A stretch of 64,000 nt of DNA, taken from NCBI RefSeq assembly GCF_001466305.1, contig NZ_JWID01000003.1, forward strand, positions 64,186-128,185. The letters are read 5' to 3'. Below the pieces are notes generated by a model. That model worked only from the letters and a program-made list of their open reading frames with translations. It had not been told where the DNA came from and did not search any database. Every line of letters starts with the position of its first letter. The stretch's first letter is position 1. Positions 38,743 through 58,390 of the stretch are shown one piece after another. The stretch is from Defluviitalea phaphyphila. Lineage in GTDB: Bacteria > Bacillota > Clostridia > Lachnospirales > Defluviitaleaceae. The position numbers and the translations under genes are program-made.

Positions 38743-39207
38743 ATGATGTTTATCGTATTTTTTTTACTAGTATCTGTATTAGTATTTATAGACCAATTAA
38801 CTAAATATATAGCATTAAATTATTTAAAAAGTATAAGTACAATACCAATCATTCAAAATATTTTTCATTTAACTTTTGTTGAAAATAGAGGAGCTGCTTT
38901 TGGAATATTACAAAATAAAAGATGGTTTTTTATAATTATTACATTTACTATTTTATTAGGAATCATATATTATTATATTAATCTTCCAAAAGAAAAACCT
39001 TATGGTTTTGTCAGATTTTCTCTTATATTAATTAGTAGCGGAGCTATAGGAAACTTAATTGATAGAATTAAATTAGGTTATGTAATAGATTTTTTTGATT
39101 TTAGATTAATAAATTTCCCAGTATTTAATATAGCTGATATTTATGTAGTGATAGGGACTATACTATTAAGTAGTATTATATTTTTTATGCCTCATAAAGA
39201 TCTTTAA
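38743..39207 (+). CDS. lspA: lipoprotein signal peptidase (SPase II)
   Basis: Aspartic membrane protease that cleaves prolipoproteins before the lipidated Cys. Four membrane segments fill 154 residues. The motifs FIDQLTKYIA (about 17), VENRGAAFGIL (about 46), NLIDRIKLGYVIDFFDF (first catalytic Asp, about 107) and FNIADIYVVIG (second catalytic Asp, about 131) are intact. Ribosome site AAGGAGAG. It is followed by rluD, as in most Firmicutes. Confidence 0.94.
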   Translation: MMFIVFFLLVSVLVFIDQLTKYIALNYLKSISTIPIIQNIFHLTFVENRGAAFGILQNKRWFFIIITFTILLGIIYYYINLPKEKPYGFVRFSLILISSGAIGNLIDRIKLGYVIDFFDFRLINFPVFNIADIYVVIGTILLSSIIFFMPHKDL

Positions 39208-43637: not shown

Positions 43638-44141
43638 ATGAGAACTAAAAAATTAACGATTACAGCATTAATGGCTGCCTTAGTTACTGCAATGACTATG
43701 GCAATTGCAATCCCTATTGGAAATCAAGGCTATCTTAATTTTGGAGATATTATGATTTTTACTTCAGCTCTTTTATTTGGCCCTCAGGTAGGATTGATTG
43801 CCGGAGGAATTGGTTCAGCTCTAGCCGACCTACTTAGCGGATATGGGGTATGGATACCTATAACTTTAATAGCTAAAGGTCTAGAAGGTTATATAGCAGG
43901 ACTAATTTGTTTTAAAGCTAAATCACAAATGAAAAATTTAATTGGAATAATTATATCAGGATTTATAATGATATTTGTATACTATATTGGTGGAGTTATA
44001 TTGACTTTTTCTAGTGAAGGAATTCTTCCTGCAATTATCGCATCCCTTTCTGGCATTCCGTTTAATATTTTACAAGTAGTTGTTGGTGCAATAGGAGGAA
44101 ACATAATTGCTCTTTTACTAAAAGATAAAATAAAAATATAA
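43638..44141 (+). CDS. ECF transporter S component, substrate unknown
   Basis: A 167-residue membrane protein with five to six hydrophobic segments. The N-terminal RTKKLTITALMAALVTAMTM with a basic start and Ala-x3-Ala pattern is the region by which S components dock to EcfT. GYLNFGDIMIFTSALLFGP and GLIAGGIGSALADLL match the ECF_trnsprt (PF07155-like) group. It binds a vitamin or cofactor precursor and relies on a shared EcfAA'T module not found in this window. The substrate cannot be told. Ribosome site ATGGAGGGG. Confidence 0.75.
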   Translation: MRTKKLTITALMAALVTAMTMAIAIPIGNQGYLNFGDIMIFTSALLFGPQVGLIAGGIGSALADLLSGYGVWIPITLIAKGLEGYIAGLICFKAKSQMKNLIGIIISGFIMIFVYYIGGVILTFSSEGILPAIIASLSGIPFNILQVVVGAIGGNIIALLLKDKIKI

Positions 44142-47995: not shown

Positions 47996-48970
47996 ATGTA
48001 CAAAAAGAAATTTTTTAAAATTTTTTGTAGTGTAATATTTTTTTGCCTTTTATTAATTGCTTGCTCTAAACAAAATACAAATACAGCAAATATAGATGAA
48101 GATATTTTTAATATGGAAAATAATAATATAAGACAACAAGTAGATTATAAATTTCATTTTGGTCCTAAAAATATTGAAAATCCAGTAAAGATTAATGAAG
48201 AATCCCTTGAGTATGATATGAAATTCGAAAATTTAGGAGGACCTGCAGAATTTGGTATTATTATTGTTGCTGATGGTATACCACAAAAAGTAAAATTAGA
48301 AGATGATTTAGCTATTATGCATAAAGTATCATTAGATACTAAAGAATCTAAAGAATATAAATTTATTATAAATAAACAGGATTTAAATATTAATGATGGA
48401 GAAGAACATATTATTCATCCTATAGTAATATTAGAGCCAGATTATATTCCTCAAAATATAACTCCTTTTACTCATGAAGGAAGTCTTAATGCATCTTTAG
48501 GTATACCATTTTATTATACAAGTGATATAAAGAAAGATATAAAAATAGGACACGTTGACTCTATTAAAATTGATGATCAATTTAGAAAAGAATATAATTT
48601 GGATAGAGAAGTAAAAGTTTCATGTGAAATTCTATGGAGTATTGATGACCCTAATGTTCCATTTATCTCACATGAAGATTTAAAACAAGGATTTGATATT
48701 AATTTAATAGGAAATGTATTGGGAGAAATGCGAGTATTTTTATTTGTAGATAATAAACCAGTTAAAATAAATGGATATGATTTTTACGATGTAAAAATAC
48801 AAAAAGGTATGGTTTCTAAAATTCATGTTGATTTTACTGAAGATTTTATTTCAAACTTAAAAGATAATACTCCTATGTTTTTACTTGCAACTCCTAAAAA
48901 TTTAGATAGTATTGATACTTGGACTTGTAAAACTAACACTAAAATAATAAAGAGGGTTGCTGATGAATAA
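47996..48970 (+). CDS. lipoprotein with two Ig-like domains, ABC cluster partner
   Basis: I do not recognise this 324-residue protein. The signal peptide and lipobox LLIAC place the lipidated Cys at 23, so it should be anchored outside the membrane. The mature part looks like two beta-sandwich repeats. One, about 45-165, has FGIIIVADGIPQKVKLED; the other, about 185-310, has EMRVFLFVDNKPVKINGYD, with similar strand order. It overlaps the ATPase gene by 8 bases, so the four genes to 53015 form one operon. A role as substrate-binding or partner subunit is inference. Confidence 0.65.
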   Translation: MYKKKFFKIFCSVIFFCLLLIACSKQNTNTANIDEDIFNMENNNIRQQVDYKFHFGPKNIENPVKINEESLEYDMKFENLGGPAEFGIIIVADGIPQKVKLEDDLAIMHKVSLDTKESKEYKFIINKQDLNINDGEEHIIHPIVILEPDYIPQNITPFTHEGSLNASLGIPFYYTSDIKKDIKIGHVDSIKIDDQFRKEYNLDREVKVSCEILWSIDDPNVPFISHEDLKQGFDINLIGNVLGEMRVFLFVDNKPVKINGYDFYDVKIQKGMVSKIHVDFTEDFISNLKDNTPMFLLATPKNLDSIDTWTCKTNTKIIKRVADE

Positions 48971-49823
48971 AGAACTAATGTTATCAAATATTACTAAACG
49001 ATATGGAAAATTAGTTGCAGTAAACGATGTATCACTACGATTAACTAATGGAGTATATGGACTGTTAGGAGCTAATGGAGCTGGAAAAAGTACTTTAATA
49101 AAAATAATTGTAGGTTTAGAAAAAGAAGACTTCGGGAATATAGAATATTTAAAAAATAACAAAAAAACAGATCTTTTATCAAATATAGGATATTTACCTC
49201 AGTTCCCTTCATTTTATCCTAAGTTTACTGCTAAAGAATTTTTAGATTATATGGTTAGTTTGAAAAGTTCAAATAAAAAACATACATCAAGATATACTGA
49301 AGAACTATTAAAATTAACAAATTTATATGAATTTAAGAATAATAAAATTGGATCATTTTCTGGAGGAATGAAACAAAGATTAGGTATAGCTCAAGCCTTA
49401 ATTAATGATCCGGAAATACTTATATTAGATGAACCAACAGCAGGACTAGATTTAAAAGAAAGAATTCATTTTAGAAATTTAATATCTTCTATGGCAACAG
49501 ATAAAATTATTATTTTAGCCACTCATATTATTTCAGATGTTGAATTTATTGCAAAAGAAATTATAATGATTGAAAAAGGTTGCATTATAAAAAAAGATAC
49601 ATCTGAAAATCTTTTAAAAGAAGTCGAAAATATGACATGGGAAATTAAAACAACAGAAAAAAATATAAAAAAATATCTTGATTTATATTCAGTAAGTAAT
49701 ATTTTAGAAACTAGATCTGGTTATGTTATAAGAATTATTAGTAAAGAAAAGCCTTCAGAAGATGCTTATCTAGTAAAACCTAATCTAGAAGATTATTGTA
49801 TTTACAATTTTGAGGTGAATTAA
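48963..49823 (+). CDS. ABC transporter ATP-binding protein
   Basis: ABC-2 type ATPase of 286 residues. Walker A GLLGANGAGKSTLIKI (about 37), Q-loop in GYLPQFPSFYPKFTAKEFL, signature SFSGGMKQRLGIAQALI (about 132), Walker B EILILDEPTAGLDLKE, and switch His in ILATHIISDVEFI. The C-terminal 60 residues are a short substrate-group-specific domain. The ATG at 48963 overlaps the lipoprotein stop, with AGAGGG in front; a TTG at 48957 lies between. It energises the two permeases that follow. Confidence 0.88.
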   Translation: MNKELMLSNITKRYGKLVAVNDVSLRLTNGVYGLLGANGAGKSTLIKIIVGLEKEDFGNIEYLKNNKKTDLLSNIGYLPQFPSFYPKFTAKEFLDYMVSLKSSNKKHTSRYTEELLKLTNLYEFKNNKIGSFSGGMKQRLGIAQALINDPEILILDEPTAGLDLKERIHFRNLISSMATDKIIILATHIISDVEFIAKEIIMIEKGCIIKKDTSENLLKEVENMTWEIKTTEKNIKKYLDLYSVSNILETRSGYVIRIISKEKPSEDAYLVKPNLEDYCIYNFEVN

Positions 49824-49827
49824 TAGA

Positions 49828-50958
49828 ATGTTTTTGGAATTTAAAAAAAGTTTTTTTAGACCATATATCATTGTAATTACCCTTATCTTAATGTTATTAA
49901 ATATATTTTTTTTCACAAATAGATATGCTTATCTTACTTTAAAATCAACTGAAACAGTAAATGAATATATGTATTTCTATCCAATGGTGGAAGGTAAAAT
50001 AGAAGAAGAAAAAGTACATAAAATATTTGAATTGAAAAATGAAAATTTAGAAAAATATAATAGTGGAATTTTATCATATAAAGATAAAAATGGAAATACT
50101 TTATATAGTCATGCTAATATAATTACATTACAAACATTAATAGAAGACTTAGAATACACTTATCTTTACCCGTTAAATATGGAGAAAATAGTAAATCAAA
50201 GCAAGGAAAATTTGAAATTTTTTGATACGGAAAAACATATTTATGAAATAAATAAGAACAAAAAAATTATAAAAGATTATTCCAATCGATATATCCCTAA
50301 ATTTGGTTTAACCCGTGGATATGAATTATTATTTAATTATAAAATTTCTTCTCTTGTTTTACTATTCATTTTAATATTACCTTTATCTAGCTTATTTGCT
50401 GAAGAAAAAGAAAATAAATATTATCAAATTTTTATAGGAGAAAAAGTAAAAAAAAGATGTATTAAGTTTAAGATTATTAGCTCATATATTTTTATTTTTG
50501 TTTTAAGTTTAATTTTTTATATTATGGATATTTTTTGTTTTAATCGTATATGGCCTATGAATGAAATATTTAATCCAATTTATTCTTTAAAATTATATAA
50601 AAATACTTTTCTAAATACTAGTATATTTTCTTTTTTAATAATAAATTTTTTATTTATGTTAATTGCTTATATATTCTTTGGAACATTATTTATGATAGTT
50701 TCTTTAAATTCAAAAAAAGTATTTGTAAGTTTAGTTATAAATTATATTATTTTAATATCTGTAATTATATTAAGTGATTTTATAAATATTCCGTTTAATC
50801 CTTTTAATCTACTTAATAATAAAGATATGTTTAAAGGATTTTATGTGAAAAGGATTTTATCTTATCATATTTATGAGCCTTGGTATTATCTTATTTTTTC
50901 TTTAATTTTTATATTTTTATTAATGTGTGTCCTTAAAAGGAGCGTAAAAAAATGGTAG
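49828..50958 (+). CDS. ABC-2-like permease with large extracellular loop
   Basis: A 376-residue membrane protein. One segment at about 13-30 is followed by a roughly 135-residue hydrophilic loop, then five more segments (about 170-190, 208-232, 258-285, 295-318, 345-368). LILPLSSLFAEEKENKYYQ after the second segment is an ABC-2 permease hallmark. No named family is recognised. It lies 4 bases after the ATPase and overlaps the next gene by 7 bases. Cargo is unknown; lipid, peptide or antibiotic export are all possible. Confidence 0.7.
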   Translation: MFLEFKKSFFRPYIIVITLILMLLNIFFFTNRYAYLTLKSTETVNEYMYFYPMVEGKIEEEKVHKIFELKNENLEKYNSGILSYKDKNGNTLYSHANIITLQTLIEDLEYTYLYPLNMEKIVNQSKENLKFFDTEKHIYEINKNKKIIKDYSNRYIPKFGLTRGYELLFNYKISSLVLLFILILPLSSLFAEEKENKYYQIFIGEKVKKRCIKFKIISSYIFIFVLSLIFYIMDIFCFNRIWPMNEIFNPIYSLKLYKNTFLNTSIFSFLIINFLFMLIAYIFFGTLFMIVSLNSKKVFVSLVINYIILISVIILSDFINIPFNPFNLLNNKDMFKGFYVKRILSYHIYEPWYYLIFSLIFIFLLMCVLKRSVKKW

Positions 50959-53015
50959 AATTAAATAAACTGATTATAAAGTTAAAGGCTTTTATAATTA
51001 TAATATGCTGTATATTAGCATATTTATTATTTTCTTTTTATAATATTTATAAAGATATAAATTTTGATACTAAAACAGATTATGAGCTATATAAAAAATA
51101 CTTAAACTATCTAGATGGACCTTTAACACAAGAAAAAGAAGATTTTTTAAATAATGAAAACCTCATAATTTCCAAAGCAAAAAAGAATATAGAAACAAAT
51201 TTTTACAAATTTTTTAATAATAATATAGCTCCAGAAGAATTTGAAAATATATATTTAAAAAACGAATCTATCCTACAAAAAGAGTTAGCTTTCAAAAAAG
51301 TTTGGGATAAATATGACTATGTATATGAAAATAAGGAGAATAGATATTTTCTAAAAGGAAGTTCCAAATATATTTTACAAGAAAAATTTAATTTTTTATT
51401 ATATATTGGTATTATTTTATTTGTTACACCTTTTTTATTTATTGAAAAAGAAAGCAAAATGATAGATTTGATAAGGTCAAGTATAAATGGAAATATAAAA
51501 ACTGCAAAAATTAAAACATTGATTATATTTATAGTTACATCTATATTTGTTTTATTATTTCAAATAATAGATTTATCATTATTTATTTACCAAAATGGGT
51601 TTCATGCTTTATTTTATCCTATGCAATCTTTAGAAATTTTTGCGACTTCGAATTATAATTTTAATATTTTAAGTGCATTCCTTATAGTAACAATATTAAG
51701 AATTATAGGATATATGGGATTAAGCAGCTTTATTATAATTTTAACACAAAATTCTAATAATAAAGTTTTATTATATTATTTACCTATTACATTTCTAATT
51801 TTAATAGAAATTTTGATAGACGAAAAATCTAACATATACATATTGCCAACACCTTTTTCATTAATGAGAGGTACTGGATTTTTAATGGGTAGTCTTAATG
51901 AACAAAGATTAGGATATACTTATGTCTTTAATGAAATTGGTGTAGGATATCTTATAGCAAGTTTAATTACTACAATAATAATTATATTTTTATCAATTTA
52001 TACGATATATAGAAAATATATAAATTATAGATTAATTAGAAAAAGAAAAAATTTGTTATGTATTGTTTTATTTTTAATTTTATTTTTAACAGGTTGCAAA
52101 GAAAATGATATTATAGCACAAGAATATAATAATTTGTTAAATCAATCATTTGCTATCCAAAATGATAATTATATTTTTTACATAATTCAAAATGAAATTT
52201 TCATGAAAAATAAAAATACATCTGAAACAATTCCCATAATTAATAATCCTTTTTTAAAAAATATATCATATCGTATAAATGCTATGTTTGCTACTAATGA
52301 TGCATTATATTATAGTATAACTTATTCAGAAGGAAGTGACCTAACTTCTAGGAGTATTAATGAAATTATAAAAGTATCTTTGGATACTTTATCAGAAAAT
52401 GTACTATGGAAACGTATACTTAATCAGGATAGGTATTTTATGGATTTAATTTTTCTAGATAAAGATGAAAATTTTAGTAATATATCTAAAATATTTATTA
52501 TTGATAATAAATTATATATTGTTGGAACTAAAAGCATAATAACTAAAAATTGGTTAAATAAAGAAAAAATTGTTATAAAAAATTTAGATGATCTTATAAG
52601 AGGTATAAAAGGAAATAATTGTTTTTATTTAAGTAATGACAAGAAAATATCGTCTTATAATTTAAAAACAGGAAAAATAAAAAAATGGAATAATAAACCT
52701 ATTCAAGAATTTATACTTACCGAAAAAGGATTTTTATATTGTTCTTATGATGGTATAGGGTTAATTAGTTACGAGGGTGAAGATATGGGAATTATTAAAG
52801 ATATCAAAGCTAAAGGATTAAGATATGATGGTAAACATATTTATTTTATAAAACAGAATACTAATGAATTGTATCGAATGGACTTACAAGGTAATAATAT
52901 AGAAAAAATAAGAGATAAAGTATATTCTTATGAAGTTTCTTATAACAGTGATGATTTGGTTATTGAAACTTTTAATGAAAATGGAGATATAAAAATACAA
53001 TGCATAAAAAAATAA
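50952..53015 (+). CDS. ABC permease fused to a lipobox-bearing extracellular domain
   Basis: A 687-residue protein. Residues 1-360 repeat the topology of the preceding permease: segment at about 12-30, long outer loop with DGPLTQEKEDFLNNE, then five segments with FVTPFLFIEKESKM after the second. A seventh segment (about 368-381) ends in LTGC with Cys382, a perfect lipobox. The rest, about 300 residues, is rich in short beta repeats (NDALYYSITYSE, NKLYIVGTKS, GKHIYFIKQNTNELYRMD) like DUF5050 propellers. With seven segments the C-terminus should be outside. A weak in-frame TTG at 52053 could give a separate lipoprotein. Confidence 0.65.
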   Translation: MVELNKLIIKLKAFIIIICCILAYLLFSFYNIYKDINFDTKTDYELYKKYLNYLDGPLTQEKEDFLNNENLIISKAKKNIETNFYKFFNNNIAPEEFENIYLKNESILQKELAFKKVWDKYDYVYENKENRYFLKGSSKYILQEKFNFLLYIGIILFVTPFLFIEKESKMIDLIRSSINGNIKTAKIKTLIIFIVTSIFVLLFQIIDLSLFIYQNGFHALFYPMQSLEIFATSNYNFNILSAFLIVTILRIIGYMGLSSFIIILTQNSNNKVLLYYLPITFLILIEILIDEKSNIYILPTPFSLMRGTGFLMGSLNEQRLGYTYVFNEIGVGYLIASLITTIIIIFLSIYTIYRKYINYRLIRKRKNLLCIVLFLILFLTGCKENDIIAQEYNNLLNQSFAIQNDNYIFYIIQNEIFMKNKNTSETIPIINNPFLKNISYRINAMFATNDALYYSITYSEGSDLTSRSINEIIKVSLDTLSENVLWKRILNQDRYFMDLIFLDKDENFSNISKIFIIDNKLYIVGTKSIITKNWLNKEKIVIKNLDDLIRGIKGNNCFYLSNDKKISSYNLKTGKIKKWNNKPIQEFILTEKGFLYCSYDGIGLISYEGEDMGIIKDIKAKGLRYDGKHIYFIKQNTNELYRMDLQGNNIEKIRDKVYSYEVSYNSDDLVIETFNENGDIKIQCIKK

Positions 53016-53147: not shown

Positions 53148-53651
53148 TTATGCTTCTTGTTTAATTTTTATAATATCGTTTAAAGCTGATTTTGGTATAA
53201 ATTTTATGACAAGAGCTGAAATAAAAGCGTCTACGCAATGATGAAGTATAGTTCCTATACCAGTTACAACTAAAAGCTGATATGCATTAAAATCTACAAA
53301 AGGTGTTACCACTAAAACTTCTAATAAACCATGGAGTGGAGCTGTTATAGTTGCAACTCTTCCAAATGACATTCCTTTTTTTATAAGTTTAGATCCTAAA
53401 AGTCCTACAAATATATGCATAAAGGCTCTAGCTCCTATTAAAGGACCAAGGGTTAAACCAAAACCTAACGCAGAGCCAATGCCAGTCATAATAGCAACTT
53501 CAGGCCCTAATACCATAGATATAAACATAGGAACATGTGATCCTAAAGTAGCAGTAAAAGGTGGAATTATAATTTTTAAAAATACTGCAAAAGGAATTAC
53601 AATAGCAAGAGCTGTAAGTAAAGCAGTTACTGCTAATTTTTTAGTATTCAT
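53148..53651 (-). CDS. niaX: ECF transporter S component, NiaX-like (niacin)
   Basis: A 167-residue membrane protein with about six hydrophobic segments. NTKKLAVTALLTALAIVIPF is the S-component start. FTATLGSHVPMFISMVLGP (about 32-50) closely follows the motif of niacin-specific NiaX proteins. GIGSALGFGLTLGP and ILHHCVDAFISALV also agree. It would import nicotinate/nicotinamide with a shared ECF module encoded elsewhere. Single gene on the minus strand with its own strong promoter. Ribosome site TAGGAGGAT. Confidence 0.72.
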   Translation of the reverse strand: MNTKKLAVTALLTALAIVIPFAVFLKIIIPPFTATLGSHVPMFISMVLGPEVAIMTGIGSALGFGLTLGPLIGARAFMHIFVGLLGSKLIKKGMSFGRVATITAPLHGLLEVLVVTPFVDFNAYQLLVVTGIGTILHHCVDAFISALVIKFIPKSALNDIIKIKQEA

Positions 53652-53860: not shown

Positions 53861-54535
53861 ATGTATAGAATATTTATTGTTGAAGATGATACTATCATTG
53901 CTTCAGAAATAGAAAAGTATTTAATGAAATGGGGATATGAAGTAAAATGCGCTTCAAACTTTAATGATATAATAACAGAATTTATTAAATATGACCCTCA
54001 ATTAGTACTGATGGATATTTCTCTTCCTTTTTATAATGGATATTACTGGTGTAAAGAAATCAGAAAAATATCTAAAATACCAATTATATTTATTTCATCT
54101 GCTAAAGATAACATGAATATTCTTATGGCTATTAGTATGGGGGGAGATGATTTTATTTCAAAGCCCTTTGAATTAAGTGTACTTTCTGCTAAAATACAAG
54201 CAATGCTTAGACGTTCTTACTCTTATAATGAAAAAAATAATTATAAAGAATATAAAGGAGTTTTATTTAATACATCAGATGCTTCTTTGATTTATAAAGA
54301 AGAAAAAATAGAACTTACAAAAAATGAATTTAAAATTATACAAATATTATTCGAAAATATTGGGGAAATAGTTTCTAGAGAACAAATTATGAAAAAACTA
54401 TGGGATAATGAATGTTTTGTGGATGATAATACTTTAACAGTTAATATTACTAGGCTTCGAAAGAAATTAGAAAATGCTGGTATTAAAGATTTTATTAAAA
54501 CAAAAAAAGGTCTAGGATATATTATAGGAGAGTAA
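53861..54535 (+). CDS. BceR-type response regulator (OmpR family)
   Basis: A 224-residue response regulator. Receiver domain (1-120) with acidic pair E8-D9-D10, phospho-acceptor D52 in VLMDISLP, and SKPFELSVLSAKIQAMLRR. The winged helix (about 128-222) contains ELTKNEFKIIQILFENIGEIVSR (abridged) and RLRKKLENAGI. It pairs with the sensor kinase one base downstream and the BceAB transporter beyond, the arrangement that senses bacitracin-like peptide antibiotics. Ribosome site AAAGGAG. Confidence 0.9.
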   Translation: MYRIFIVEDDTIIASEIEKYLMKWGYEVKCASNFNDIITEFIKYDPQLVLMDISLPFYNGYYWCKEIRKISKIPIIFISSAKDNMNILMAISMGGDDFISKPFELSVLSAKIQAMLRRSYSYNEKNNYKEYKGVLFNTSDASLIYKEEKIELTKNEFKIIQILFENIGEIVSREQIMKKLWDNECFVDDNTLTVNITRLRKKLENAGIKDFIKTKKGLGYIIGE

Positions 54536-54536
54536 T

Positions 54537-55541
54537 ATGGGAAAAATTAATTTATCAACTCTAATGTTAGGATATTTTAGAGAAAAAATTAAGACTATAC
54601 TCTTGTTTATAATTTATATTATAATTTTTGTAATTGTATGTACTCTTTATCAACTTAATAATCTATCACAAATTTTATATGCAGTAATTATATGTTTATT
54701 TATTAGTTTTAATTATTTAGTTGTAGATTTTATAAATTATAGAAAGCATATTTTAAAAATACATCAGATGTATATAAATAAAGAAAATTTATTAGAATTT
54801 TTACCTGAAACCAAAAATTTAAAAGAATTAAAATATCAAGAAATTATTAAAAGTATATTTATGGAAAATCAAAATCTTATTTTTAATACTAAGTTAAAAG
54901 AAACTGAAATGATGGACTATTATACATTATGGGTTCACCAAATAAAAACTCCTATAGCTGCTATTAAATTATTATTAAATAATAATAAAGATAAAAAATT
55001 TTCTTATAAACTTGAAGGAGAATTATTTAAAGTTGAACAGTATTTAGAAATGTTACTGCATTATTTAAGATTAGAAAGTATGTCTTCTGATATGTTATTA
55101 AAGGAATATGAACTTAATGATATTGTAAAACAGGCAGTAAAAAAATACGGACTATTATTTATTAATAAAAAACTTTCATTTAATATTGAAGATTTTAGTC
55201 TTATAATAGTTACTGATGAAAAATGGTTAACTTTTTGTTTGGAACAATTAATTTCTAATGCTATAAAATATACTCCTAAAGGAGGAATATCTATCTACTT
55301 AGAAAACAAATCTTTAGTTATAGAAGATACAGGGATTGGAATTAAAGATGAAGATTTACCTCGCATTTTTGAAAGAGGATTTACAGGCTATAACGGAAGA
55401 ATGGATAAAAAATCTACAGGTTTAGGACTTTATCTATGTAAACAAATTTTAGACACATTATCCCATGGTATAAAAGTTGAATCAAAATTAGGAAAGGGAA
55501 CAAAAATATTTATAGATTTTTCTAATCAGACTCATAAATAA
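54537..55541 (+). CDS. BceS-like intramembrane-sensing histidine kinase
   Basis: A 334-residue sensor kinase with only two membrane segments (about 20-38 and 45-64) and almost no outer loop, typical of intramembrane-sensing kinases that read the flux of their BceAB transporter. Phospho-acceptor H134 in WVHQIKTPIAAIKLLL. N box EQLISNAIKYTPKGG, G boxes EDTGIGIKDEDLPRIFERG and STGLGLYLCKQIL. It starts one base after the regulator stop, in the same operon. Confidence 0.9.
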   Translation: MGKINLSTLMLGYFREKIKTILLFIIYIIIFVIVCTLYQLNNLSQILYAVIICLFISFNYLVVDFINYRKHILKIHQMYINKENLLEFLPETKNLKELKYQEIIKSIFMENQNLIFNTKLKETEMMDYYTLWVHQIKTPIAAIKLLLNNNKDKKFSYKLEGELFKVEQYLEMLLHYLRLESMSSDMLLKEYELNDIVKQAVKKYGLLFINKKLSFNIEDFSLIIVTDEKWLTFCLEQLISNAIKYTPKGGISIYLENKSLVIEDTGIGIKDEDLPRIFERGFTGYNGRMDKKSTGLGLYLCKQILDTLSHGIKVESKLGKGTKIFIDFSNQTHK

Positions 55542-55543
55542 TT

Positions 55544-55607
55544 CTTACAAAAATGTAAGTTAAAAAGGAGAAATGTAAGCCTAATCGATGGCAACGCATT
55601 TCTCCTT
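55544..55607 (+). promoter_or_regulatory. two hairpins between the sensor kinase and bceA
   Basis: CTTACA/TGTAAG (55544-55559) is a small hairpin. AAGGAGAAATG (55565-55575) pairs with CATTTCTCCTT (55597-55607), 11 bp, with an inner GCC/GGC pair around TAATCGAT. The tail ATATTATTATA is not a proper T run. It may be a weak terminator or a leader element of bceA. Confidence 0.45.
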
Positions 55608-55656
55608 ATATTATTATAAAATTAATTAAAAAACTTTTACGGAAAGGATAGATATT

Positions 55657-56424
55657 ATGGCTCTTTTAAAAGTAAAAAATATAAAAAAAATATATACCAC
55701 TCGTTTAGGAGGTAATAAAGTTACTGCTTTAAATAATGTGAGTTTTTCAGTAGAAAAGGGAGAATATGTAGCTATAATGGGGGAATCTGGTTCTGGAAAA
55801 ACCACTCTTTTAAATATATTAGCTTCTATAGACAAACCTACTAGTGGAGAAGTTTTTTTAGAAAATAAAGAGCTTTCAAAAATTAAACAAGGAGAATTGG
55901 CTGCTTTTAGAAGGGATAATTTAGGGTTTGTTTTTCAAGATTTTAATTTACTAGATACTTTTTCAATTCAAGATAATATTTTTTTACCCCTTGTTTTAGC
56001 AGGAAAATCTTATAACGAAATGAACGAAAAATTAAAACCTTTAGCTAAAAAATTAGGAATAGAAGATATATTAAAAAAATATCCCTATGAAGTTTCTGGA
56101 GGGCAAAAACAAAGAGCAGCAGTGGCTAGAGCTCTAATTACCTATCCCAAATTAGTTTTAGCTGATGAACCTACAGGAGCATTAGATTCTAAATCTGCTT
56201 CTAAGCTTCTAGAATTATTTTCAGATATTAATAAAGAAGGGCAAACTATTTTAATGGTTACCCATAGTATACAGGCAGCTAGCCATGCTAGTAGAGTAAT
56301 GTTTATTAAAGATGGATGCATATTTAATCAAATATATCGTGGAAATTCTTCTAAGAAAGAAATGTACAAAAAAATATCCCATACCATGACCATATTACAA
56401 ACAGGAGGGGATTATGATGAATAA
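55657..56424 (+). CDS. BceA-like ABC transporter ATPase
   Basis: A 255-residue ATPase of the macrolide/bacitracin (MacB/BceA) class. VKNIKKIYTTRLGGNKVTAL opens it; Walker A IMGESGSGKTTLLNILA (about 40), Q-loop FVFQDFNLLDTFSIQDNIFL, signature YEVSGGQKQRAAVARALI (about 145), Walker B KLVLADEPTGALDSKSA, switch MVTHSIQAASHA. It energises the FtsX-type permease whose start overlaps its end by 11 bases. Confidence 0.93.
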   Translation: MALLKVKNIKKIYTTRLGGNKVTALNNVSFSVEKGEYVAIMGESGSGKTTLLNILASIDKPTSGEVFLENKELSKIKQGELAAFRRDNLGFVFQDFNLLDTFSIQDNIFLPLVLAGKSYNEMNEKLKPLAKKLGIEDILKKYPYEVSGGQKQRAAVARALITYPKLVLADEPTGALDSKSASKLLELFSDINKEGQTILMVTHSIQAASHASRVMFIKDGCIFNQIYRGNSSKKEMYKKISHTMTILQTGGDYDE

Positions 56425-58390
56425 AACTATTTTGCTACCTAAACTATCTATATTAGGTATTAAAAAAAATGGGACAACTTATTTCCCATATATACTATCT
56501 GGAATAATTTCAGTATTTGTTTTCTTTATTTTTTCATCAATTATAAAAAATGATATTATGAATACTTTACCCCATAGTTCATATTTGATTATTTTAATGA
56601 ATATAGGCCTAATGTTGCTTAGAATAATTTTAATATTATTTCTCATATATACCAATAGTTTTTTAATTAAAAGAAGAAAAAAGGAATTAGGTCTTTATAA
56701 TATCTTGGGTTTAGAAAAAAAACATATAATATTAATAATGATTGGGGAAACTTTAATTATATTTTTGATTACATTAGCTATAGGAATTTTATCTGGAATA
56801 GTATTTTCTAAATTAGCATTTGTATTATTACTTAATTTATCAAATATGCCTGTAGATATAGGTTTTACATTTAATTTTAAAGCATATCAGCAAACCTTTT
56901 ATTATTTTCTACTTGCACATGGTATTAATTTAGTAATAAACATTTTTCAAATTATAAAGTCAAATCCAAAATCTCTTATGCAAGGAGAAAAAGAAGGAGA
57001 TAAGGATCCTAAATATTTATGGATAATAGCAATTATAGGAATAGCTTTTCTAGGAATAGGATATTATATAGCTAATATTATAGAACTTAATAGTATGTTT
57101 TTTATTAATATTTTTGTGGCTATACTTTTAGTAATCTTGGGAACTCATAGTTTTTTTAGAGCTGGAATAATAGCATTACTTAAAATAATGAAAATAAATA
57201 AGAATTTTTATTACAATAAATCAAATTATGTAACTATTTCAGGAATGATTTATAGAATGAAAAAGAATACTTCTAGTTTAGCTAATATTTGTATCTTTAG
57301 CACAATGGTTATAATTACTTTATTATGTACCTTATCTCTTTGGAGTGGAATGGACCAATTACTATATTATCAATATCCTTATGATGTTATATTTAATTTT
57401 GATACCATTCACTTTAAAGAATATGAAAATTTTAATAAAAAATTAAACGAAATAATTGATAATACTAATATTAATATTGAAAATAGAATGGAATTTACTT
57501 ATCAAGTATTAAAGGGATTTAAAAATAAAAATAGCTTTGTAAAAGCAAAAAGTACTCAACAAAGTAATTATAATATAAAATTAATTACCTTAGAGGATTT
57601 TAATAAAATACAGGAGGAATCACAAAAATTAGAAAATGATGAAATCATAATTATTACTCAAAATGATTCTCTGAAATACGATACTATGTTATTAAATAAT
57701 ACGGAATATAAAGTTAAAAAAATAATAACAGAAATAAATTTTGCTCCAAAAACAATGAGTATTGCTGGTTTAGATTCTTATTTGGTTGTAAAAAATAAAG
57801 AAATTATGGATAAAATCATCAAAGAATTCGTAAATACAGAAAATAATTCTCCTATATATACTATTCATATTCAGTTAAGAGGAGAGGATAAAAATAAAAA
57901 AGAATTCATATATGAATTGAATAATTGGTGTAAAACAAAAGACGGATTTATTAATATGAAAAATGGAATTTATGAAAGAGAAGAAAGCCAAGCTGTGTAT
58001 GGAGGATTATTATTTATCGGAATATTTTTTGGAATTATATTCAGTATGTGTTTAATTTTAATTATGTATTATAAACAAATAACAGAAGGCTTTGAAGACC
58101 AAAATAATTTTAGTATTATGCAAAAAATAGGTATGAGTGATAAAGAAATGAGAGCTACTATAAAGCAACAAATATTATTAGTATTTTTTATTCCTTTAAT
58201 AATGGCTATAATCCATACTATAGCTGGATTTAAAATGATAGTAAATCTTATGAAAACAATATATATATTTGATAGACAATTAATAATCTTGTCTGGAAGC
58301 ATTATAGTAATATCATTTGCTGTATTATATATATTAACTTATATTATAACATCAAGAGCTTATTATAATATAGTAAAGGATATTAGATAA
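56414..58390 (+). CDS. BceB-like FtsX-domain permease
   Basis: A 658-residue permease with ten membrane segments: four in the first 180 residues, more to about 310, a large extracellular domain at about 315-520, and the last FtsX repeat to the C-terminus. FLIKRRKKELGLYNILGLEKKH (about 84) and NFSIMQKIGMSDKEM (about 565) are the FtsX coupling motifs. The roughly 200-residue outer domain is the BceB hallmark, recognising peptide-antibiotic/undecaprenyl-pyrophosphate complexes. With BceA and BceRS it forms a target-protection and signalling module. Confidence 0.9.
   Translation: MMNKTILLPKLSILGIKKNGTTYFPYILSGIISVFVFFIFSSIIKNDIMNTLPHSSYLIILMNIGLMLLRIILILFLIYTNSFLIKRRKKELGLYNILGLEKKHIILIMIGETLIIFLITLAIGILSGIVFSKLAFVLLLNLSNMPVDIGFTFNFKAYQQTFYYFLLAHGINLVINIFQIIKSNPKSLMQGEKEGDKDPKYLWIIAIIGIAFLGIGYYIANIIELNSMFFINIFVAILLVILGTHSFFRAGIIALLKIMKINKNFYYNKSNYVTISGMIYRMKKNTSSLANICIFSTMVIITLLCTLSLWSGMDQLLYYQYPYDVIFNFDTIHFKEYENFNKKLNEIIDNTNINIENRMEFTYQVLKGFKNKNSFVKAKSTQQSNYNIKLITLEDFNKIQEESQKLENDEIIIITQNDSLKYDTMLLNNTEYKVKKIITEINFAPKTMSIAGLDSYLVVKNKEIMDKIIKEFVNTENNSPIYTIHIQLRGEDKNKKEFIYELNNWCKTKDGFINMKNGIYEREESQAVYGGLLFIGIFFGIIFSMCLILIMYYKQITEGFEDQNNFSIMQKIGMSDKEMRATIKQQILLVFFIPLIMAIIHTIAGFKMIVNLMKTIYIFDRQLIILSGSIIVISFAVLYILTYIITSRAYYNIVKDIR

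Follow-up and report, generated by a model that had tools for sequence, protein, structure and literature searches.

The window, a stretch of 64,000 nucleotides from Defluviitalea phaphyphila, contains a single open frame of 687 residues, from ATG to stop according to the ORF listing and its translation, in which an ABC permease continues via a lipobox into an extracellular beta-propeller (Table 1). Judged by its homologues, the fusion is real rather than a sequencing artefact, and it is old. We believe that the last hydrophobic segment of the permease, segment 7, probably represents an internal type II signal peptide, with Cys382 being lipidated and LspA probably cutting the chain into a permease and a lipoprotein at a 1:1 ratio.

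Table 1. Genes of the operon and parts of the fused gene; positions are counted from the first nucleotide of the window.
Feature	Position	Strand	Remarks
Lipoprotein A, first operon gene	47996-48970	+	324 aa; N-terminal lipobox LIAC; same family as the upstream lipoproteins of relatives; good ribosome site, AGGAGG, ahead of the gene
ABC ATPase	48957-49823	+	overlaps the lipoprotein A gene; PF00005, 7.8e-31
Permease 1	49828-50958	+	376 aa (ORF), without C-terminal domain; clusters in the tree with the permease 1 sequences of related operons
Permease 2-lipobox-propeller fusion	50952-53015	+	687 aa; start overlaps the permease 1 stop
Permease part, residues 1-358	50952-52025	+	six hydrophobic segments; large first outside loop
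Internal signal peptide, residues 359-381	52026-52094	+	n-region RLIRKRKN; 15-residue uncharged h-region; lipobox L-T-G
Cys382, lipobox cysteine	52095-52097	+	codon TGC
Extracellular DUF5050-type beta-propeller, residues ~397-687	52140-53012	+	PF16472 in relatives; 3s25, Z 19.4 (predicted model)

Hydropathy analysis outlines seven hydrophobic segments in the fusion, at residues 7-25, 146-164, 190-208, 239-257, 272-290, 329-347 and 361/370-388, while the first outside loop of the permease part (residues ~35-140) is predicted to be helical. A charged stretch, RLIRKRKN, separates segments 6 and 7, the latter ending FLTGC at Cys382, after which a hydrophilic spacer leads into ~290-300 residues of beta structure. 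The original prediction had described a permease joined to a whole lipoprotein, as now confirmed by the open frame and by the same in-frame join in homologues. It had also likened the first ~360 residues to the preceding permease, congruent with the homology that we detect between both permeases at profile level, where the family profile also matches permease 1 of relatives. The proposed count of seven segments is upheld in part only, as six are clear, whereas the seventh comprises merely 15 uncharged residues, equivalent to the length of a signal peptide and not to a full span. PF12730 (ABC2_membrane_4) matches 11 of 32 relatives at E<=0.01 (best 6.2e-5), the window protein itself being without match, and searches of NCBIfam and PADLOC returned no match for the permeases, the fusion or the lipoprotein of the window operon.

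An assembly artefact or a frameshift joining two genes could generate such a frame, yet dozens of assemblies made independently, across several families, show the same in-frame join; the homologues refute this explanation, and we assign it next to no probability. The close homologues are thus not split genes that a sequencing error has joined here, as ~90 distinct relatives are fused in frame and the split state appears only in more distant operons. The gene is present in one copy in its own genome. A query with the full-length protein gave no match in seven other genomes of its family, and a later profile search of the same family's genomes recovered a partial permease match only, in one genome. 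With the C-terminal part as query, frames of 596-799 residues with the same fusion in the same operon were recovered among 392 genomes of the order; when aligned, these relatives are 20-23% identical to the window protein, and Cys382 is among the invariant columns. Scanning genome contigs with the single protein yielded nothing, the window protein being too divergent, whereas an alignment-based scan found the family.

When named genomes were scanned with a profile, 80 loci emerged, distributed across Lachnospiraceae, Oscillospiraceae, Peptococcaceae-labelled and other Clostridia, as well as Eggerthellaceae of the Actinomycetota (Adlercreutzia, Parvibacter). The family is nonetheless patchy, considering that only 6 of 398 genomes of a phylum-wide sample have matches. 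The whole arrangement, including the cysteine, is conserved at 19-30% identity, and the order of lipoprotein(s), ATPase, permease and fused permease is found in Bacillota and Eggerthellaceae relatives alike (~20% identity). Four Eggerthellaceae loci (L092, L098, L103 and L080) carry the whole operon, and in the permease tree their rows are nested within those of Bacillota, pointing to horizontal transfer, which the sequences suggest took place in the gut. In the same tree a single change accounts for the lipobox fusions, with weak support (62/48).

In the window, the genes for lipoprotein, ATPase and permease are tightly packed, and the fused permease closes the set. Cys23 is invariant in the lipoprotein A family, and the ATPase is 41-49% identical to the ATPases of related operons. 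A response regulator and a histidine kinase adjoin the operon in many relatives. Just downstream of the window operon, at 53861-58390, a response regulator, a histidine kinase, an ATPase and a multi-span permease resemble a BceRS-BceAB peptide-resistance module, and the region is flanked by two 167-residue membrane proteins on opposite strands (43638-44141 and 53148-53651) that look like substrate-binding components of ECF transporters. Several Lachnospiraceae have an Amidase_3 gene (N-acetylmuramoyl-L-alanine amidase) behind the operon (L035, 8081-8875; L031, 8042-9061). In most relatives lipoproteins A and B have a gene each, but in L143 (1173-3368) and L021 (733-2781) they appear to be joined into one lipoprotein of 680-730 residues.

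Among the split arrangements, that of genome G337 combines an unfused permease 2 with a separate lipoprotein that has an N-terminal lipobox and matches DUF5050 (1.8e-8); G321 and G724 likewise have unfused permeases and separate propeller-like lipoproteins, with DUF5050-family matches weaker than in G337. The standalone propeller lipoprotein B of relatives was considered as a parent of the fusion, and was rejected as its homology to the fused domain is unconvincing (profile comparison probability 11.5%). In another variant the two permeases are fused to each other in one frame of ~750-800 residues (L024, 3734-6106; L149, L150, L196, L198 and L202), where the join between permease 2 and lipoprotein is absent.

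The C-terminal domain is recognised through its relatives. A first phmmer search with the domain gave chance matches only, and its own divergent sequence has no match to PF16472 (DUF5050), a family that is detected in 28 of 31 aligned relatives at E<=0.1 (best 5.6e-12). The profile of the C-domain alignment matches 3s25, EUBREC_1955, a DUF5050-like propeller of Eubacterium rectale, at 5.8e-5. The predicted model of the domain is all-beta (pLDDT 74.5), and superposes on 3s25 with Z 19.4 and an rmsd of 3.7 over 263 residues, in a comparison that covered the propeller domain only and with a model of moderate confidence; for the same model, Foldseek gave 3s25 TM-scores of 0.65/0.67, the highest among the matches listed. 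In the full-length model, most of the spacer (residues 378-399) is of low confidence. A propeller-like beta domain with the C-terminus outside, as originally proposed, is hence in line with these data: the domain is predicted all-beta, its model matches a solved seven-bladed propeller, and the outside location is backed by homologues, fold comparison and topology. DUF5050 propellers such as 3s25 are alike in sequence family, for most relatives, and in fold; the domain found here, by contrast, is the C-terminal part of a permease.

The lipobox at the join is conserved. A cysteine occupies the lipobox column in 85 of 87 distinct fused proteins, encoded by 56 TGT and 29 TGC codons; of the two without, one is cut off by a contig end and the other is L118. 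Searching with distant relatives brought up five further fused proteins; four have a lipobox (LTGC, LCGC, LTGC and ASGC) and one, L193, has none. Across 14 representatives less than 80% identical (pairwise down to 19%), the cysteine is present in every one, preceded at -1 by Gly (13) or Ser (1), at -2 by Thr, Ser or Ala and at -3 by Leu, Val, Met or Ala, with mostly Ser at +1, while the rest of the h-region drifts among hydrophobic residues. Cys382 is one of 12 fully conserved positions among 453 gapless columns. The lipobox of the fused family agrees with the published form, [LV][ASTVI][GAS]C (PMC8048626). Following the definition given there, the fusion has the positive n-region, the short h-region and the lipobox with invariant cysteine of a lipoprotein signal, whereas its signal peptide lies internally instead of at the N-terminus, and the fusion would thus work like a lipoprotein without being an ordinary member of the class.

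Segment 7 also has the length of a signal peptide. In all 85 proteins, 13-17 uncharged residues precede the cysteine; the corresponding run is 14-17 residues long in 47 of the 48 standalone lipoproteins of these operons, and runs within the permease parts mostly measure 17-25. In L118 and L193, which are without lipobox, segment 7 is longer, ~19-23 uncharged residues, and looks like an ordinary span. Fused and lipobox-free, with a longer plain span as segment 7, is also the arrangement at L140 (4777-6840, minus strand) and L193 (4349-6478). It is conceivable that the former signal peptide serves as transmembrane helix 7 throughout, with the cysteine a relic and the propeller tethered as in GlnPQ and OpuA; L118 and L193 agree with such an anchor, and tethered outside domains are already known in ABC transporters (PMC8025302). 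A relic cysteine would however not remain invariant at 19-30% identity, and the signal-peptide length is kept in all 85, with a longer span where the lipobox is absent, and we hold the explanation to be quite improbable. The protein of L195 (3951-6611, minus strand; 886 residues) possesses a hydrophilic linker of ~90 residues between segment 6 and the internal signal peptide, along with a long low-complexity outside spacer, and its segment 7 still ends in a lipobox, arguing that segment 7 is independent of the permease bundle.

Selection differs along the chain, with pN/pS of 0.19 for the permease, 0.21 for the propeller, 0.49 for the signal segment and 0.81 for the spacer. Purifying selection on the permease and the propeller, together with a fast-evolving join, fits a pair of functional proteins with a signal peptide between them. 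As a group, the five residues of the lipobox stretch, -3 to +1, are not slower than the spacer in pN/pS, because -3, -2 and +1 vary and the sites are few.

Taken together, the sequence comparisons favour a functional lipobox rather than a plain anchoring helix. Based on established lipoprotein biology we infer lipidation, cleavage and a restart of export at segment 7. The chain would insert with six spans, the positive stretch being kept inside, and segment 7 would then re-start export and carry the propeller outside. Lgt would add diacylglycerol to Cys382, and LspA would most likely cleave between Gly381 and Cys382. One product would be a six-span permease that ends in a short tail helix, the other a propeller lipoprotein anchored by its lipid, both arising in a 1:1 ratio and in one place. 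Genes for Lgt and for two LspA are present in the genome; one lspA gene, at 38743-39207 of the window, adjoins a gene for a RluD-like pseudouridine synthase, and the second is located at G000:C8:10215-10625. We are aware of no example in which LspA was shown to act within a polytopic chain, and the lipobox-free L118 and L193 speak against cleavage in that an uncleaved tether can serve.

Lipidation may also take place without the cut, if Lgt modifies Cys382 and the permease context blocks or slows LspA, so that the propeller is tethered by both lipid and helix 7. Lgt acts first and recognises the lipobox (PMC8048626), and such a mechanism would account for the invariant cysteine and the small residue at -1. 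It is unlikely, however, as LspA follows Lgt on ordinary substrates and genes for both are present, and as the -1 position is conserved in the manner expected of a cleavage site. Finally, translation might additionally begin at an internal start codon shortly ahead of the signal peptide and give the lipoprotein by itself. A methionine opens the n-region in some Lachnospiraceae (MKTRKMRN...) and the window has a TTG at 52053, but the methionine varies, being replaced by Ile, Arg or Leu in close relatives, and the window has neither an ATG there nor an AGGAGG-like ribosome site before the TTG, rendering this route very improbable.

Regarding function, the operon content leads us to infer an exporter of the ABC-2 type, under two-component control in many relatives, that would remove a membrane-active compound. 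The propeller and the separate lipoprotein A would then most likely constitute the outside capture or sensing part of the exporter. In LanFEG ATPases, Glu replaces the Q-loop Gln (the E-loop), whereas the window ATPase and its relatives keep Gln82, invariant among the ten ATPases compared. The window ATPase also fails the curated LanF-type model TIGR03740, scoring 167 bits against a cut-off of 309.75. For these two reasons the window operon is not assigned to LanFEG, yet among known arrangements the LanFEG/LanI lantibiotic immunity systems, CprABC included, come closest, sharing one ABC-2 ATPase, two distinct permeases and a lipoprotein partner (PMC4239024); the response regulator and histidine kinase next to the operon in many relatives are a further similarity. 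Here, on the other hand, permease 2 bears a fused propeller lipoprotein, and no bacteriocin genes were recognised near the window operon.

The importers GlnPQ and OpuA similarly have an outside domain in the same chain as the transmembrane part, but with the fold of periplasmic binding proteins; the protein described here displays a propeller fold, an ABC-2-type permease and a conserved lipobox at the join. In the FbcH cytochrome b/c1 polyprotein of Bradyrhizobium, signal peptidase I cleaves an internal signal peptide that links a polytopic protein to an exported one. No lipid is involved in FbcH, as opposed to the type II lipobox of the fused permease. A search of open-licence papers found no described precedent for an internal lipobox on a permease.

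The conservation of the join across nearly a hundred gut bacteria, distantly related to one another, suggests that two proteins arise from one chain. With somewhat less assurance than for the signal peptide itself, we lean towards the family representing widespread polyproteins, in which a permease and its partner lipoprotein are synthesised as a single chain that signal peptidase II then splits at the internal lipobox, so that ratio and location of the two are fixed. The natural series of fusions with lipobox, fusions with a plain helix and split genes is suited for testing why a transporter needs a nearby lipoprotein. If the lipobox works, annotation pipelines that seek lipoprotein signals at the N-terminus only would miss such lipoproteins, and signal peptidase II would act mid-chain in multi-span proteins, so that one gene would supply both the transporter and its partner at the cell surface.
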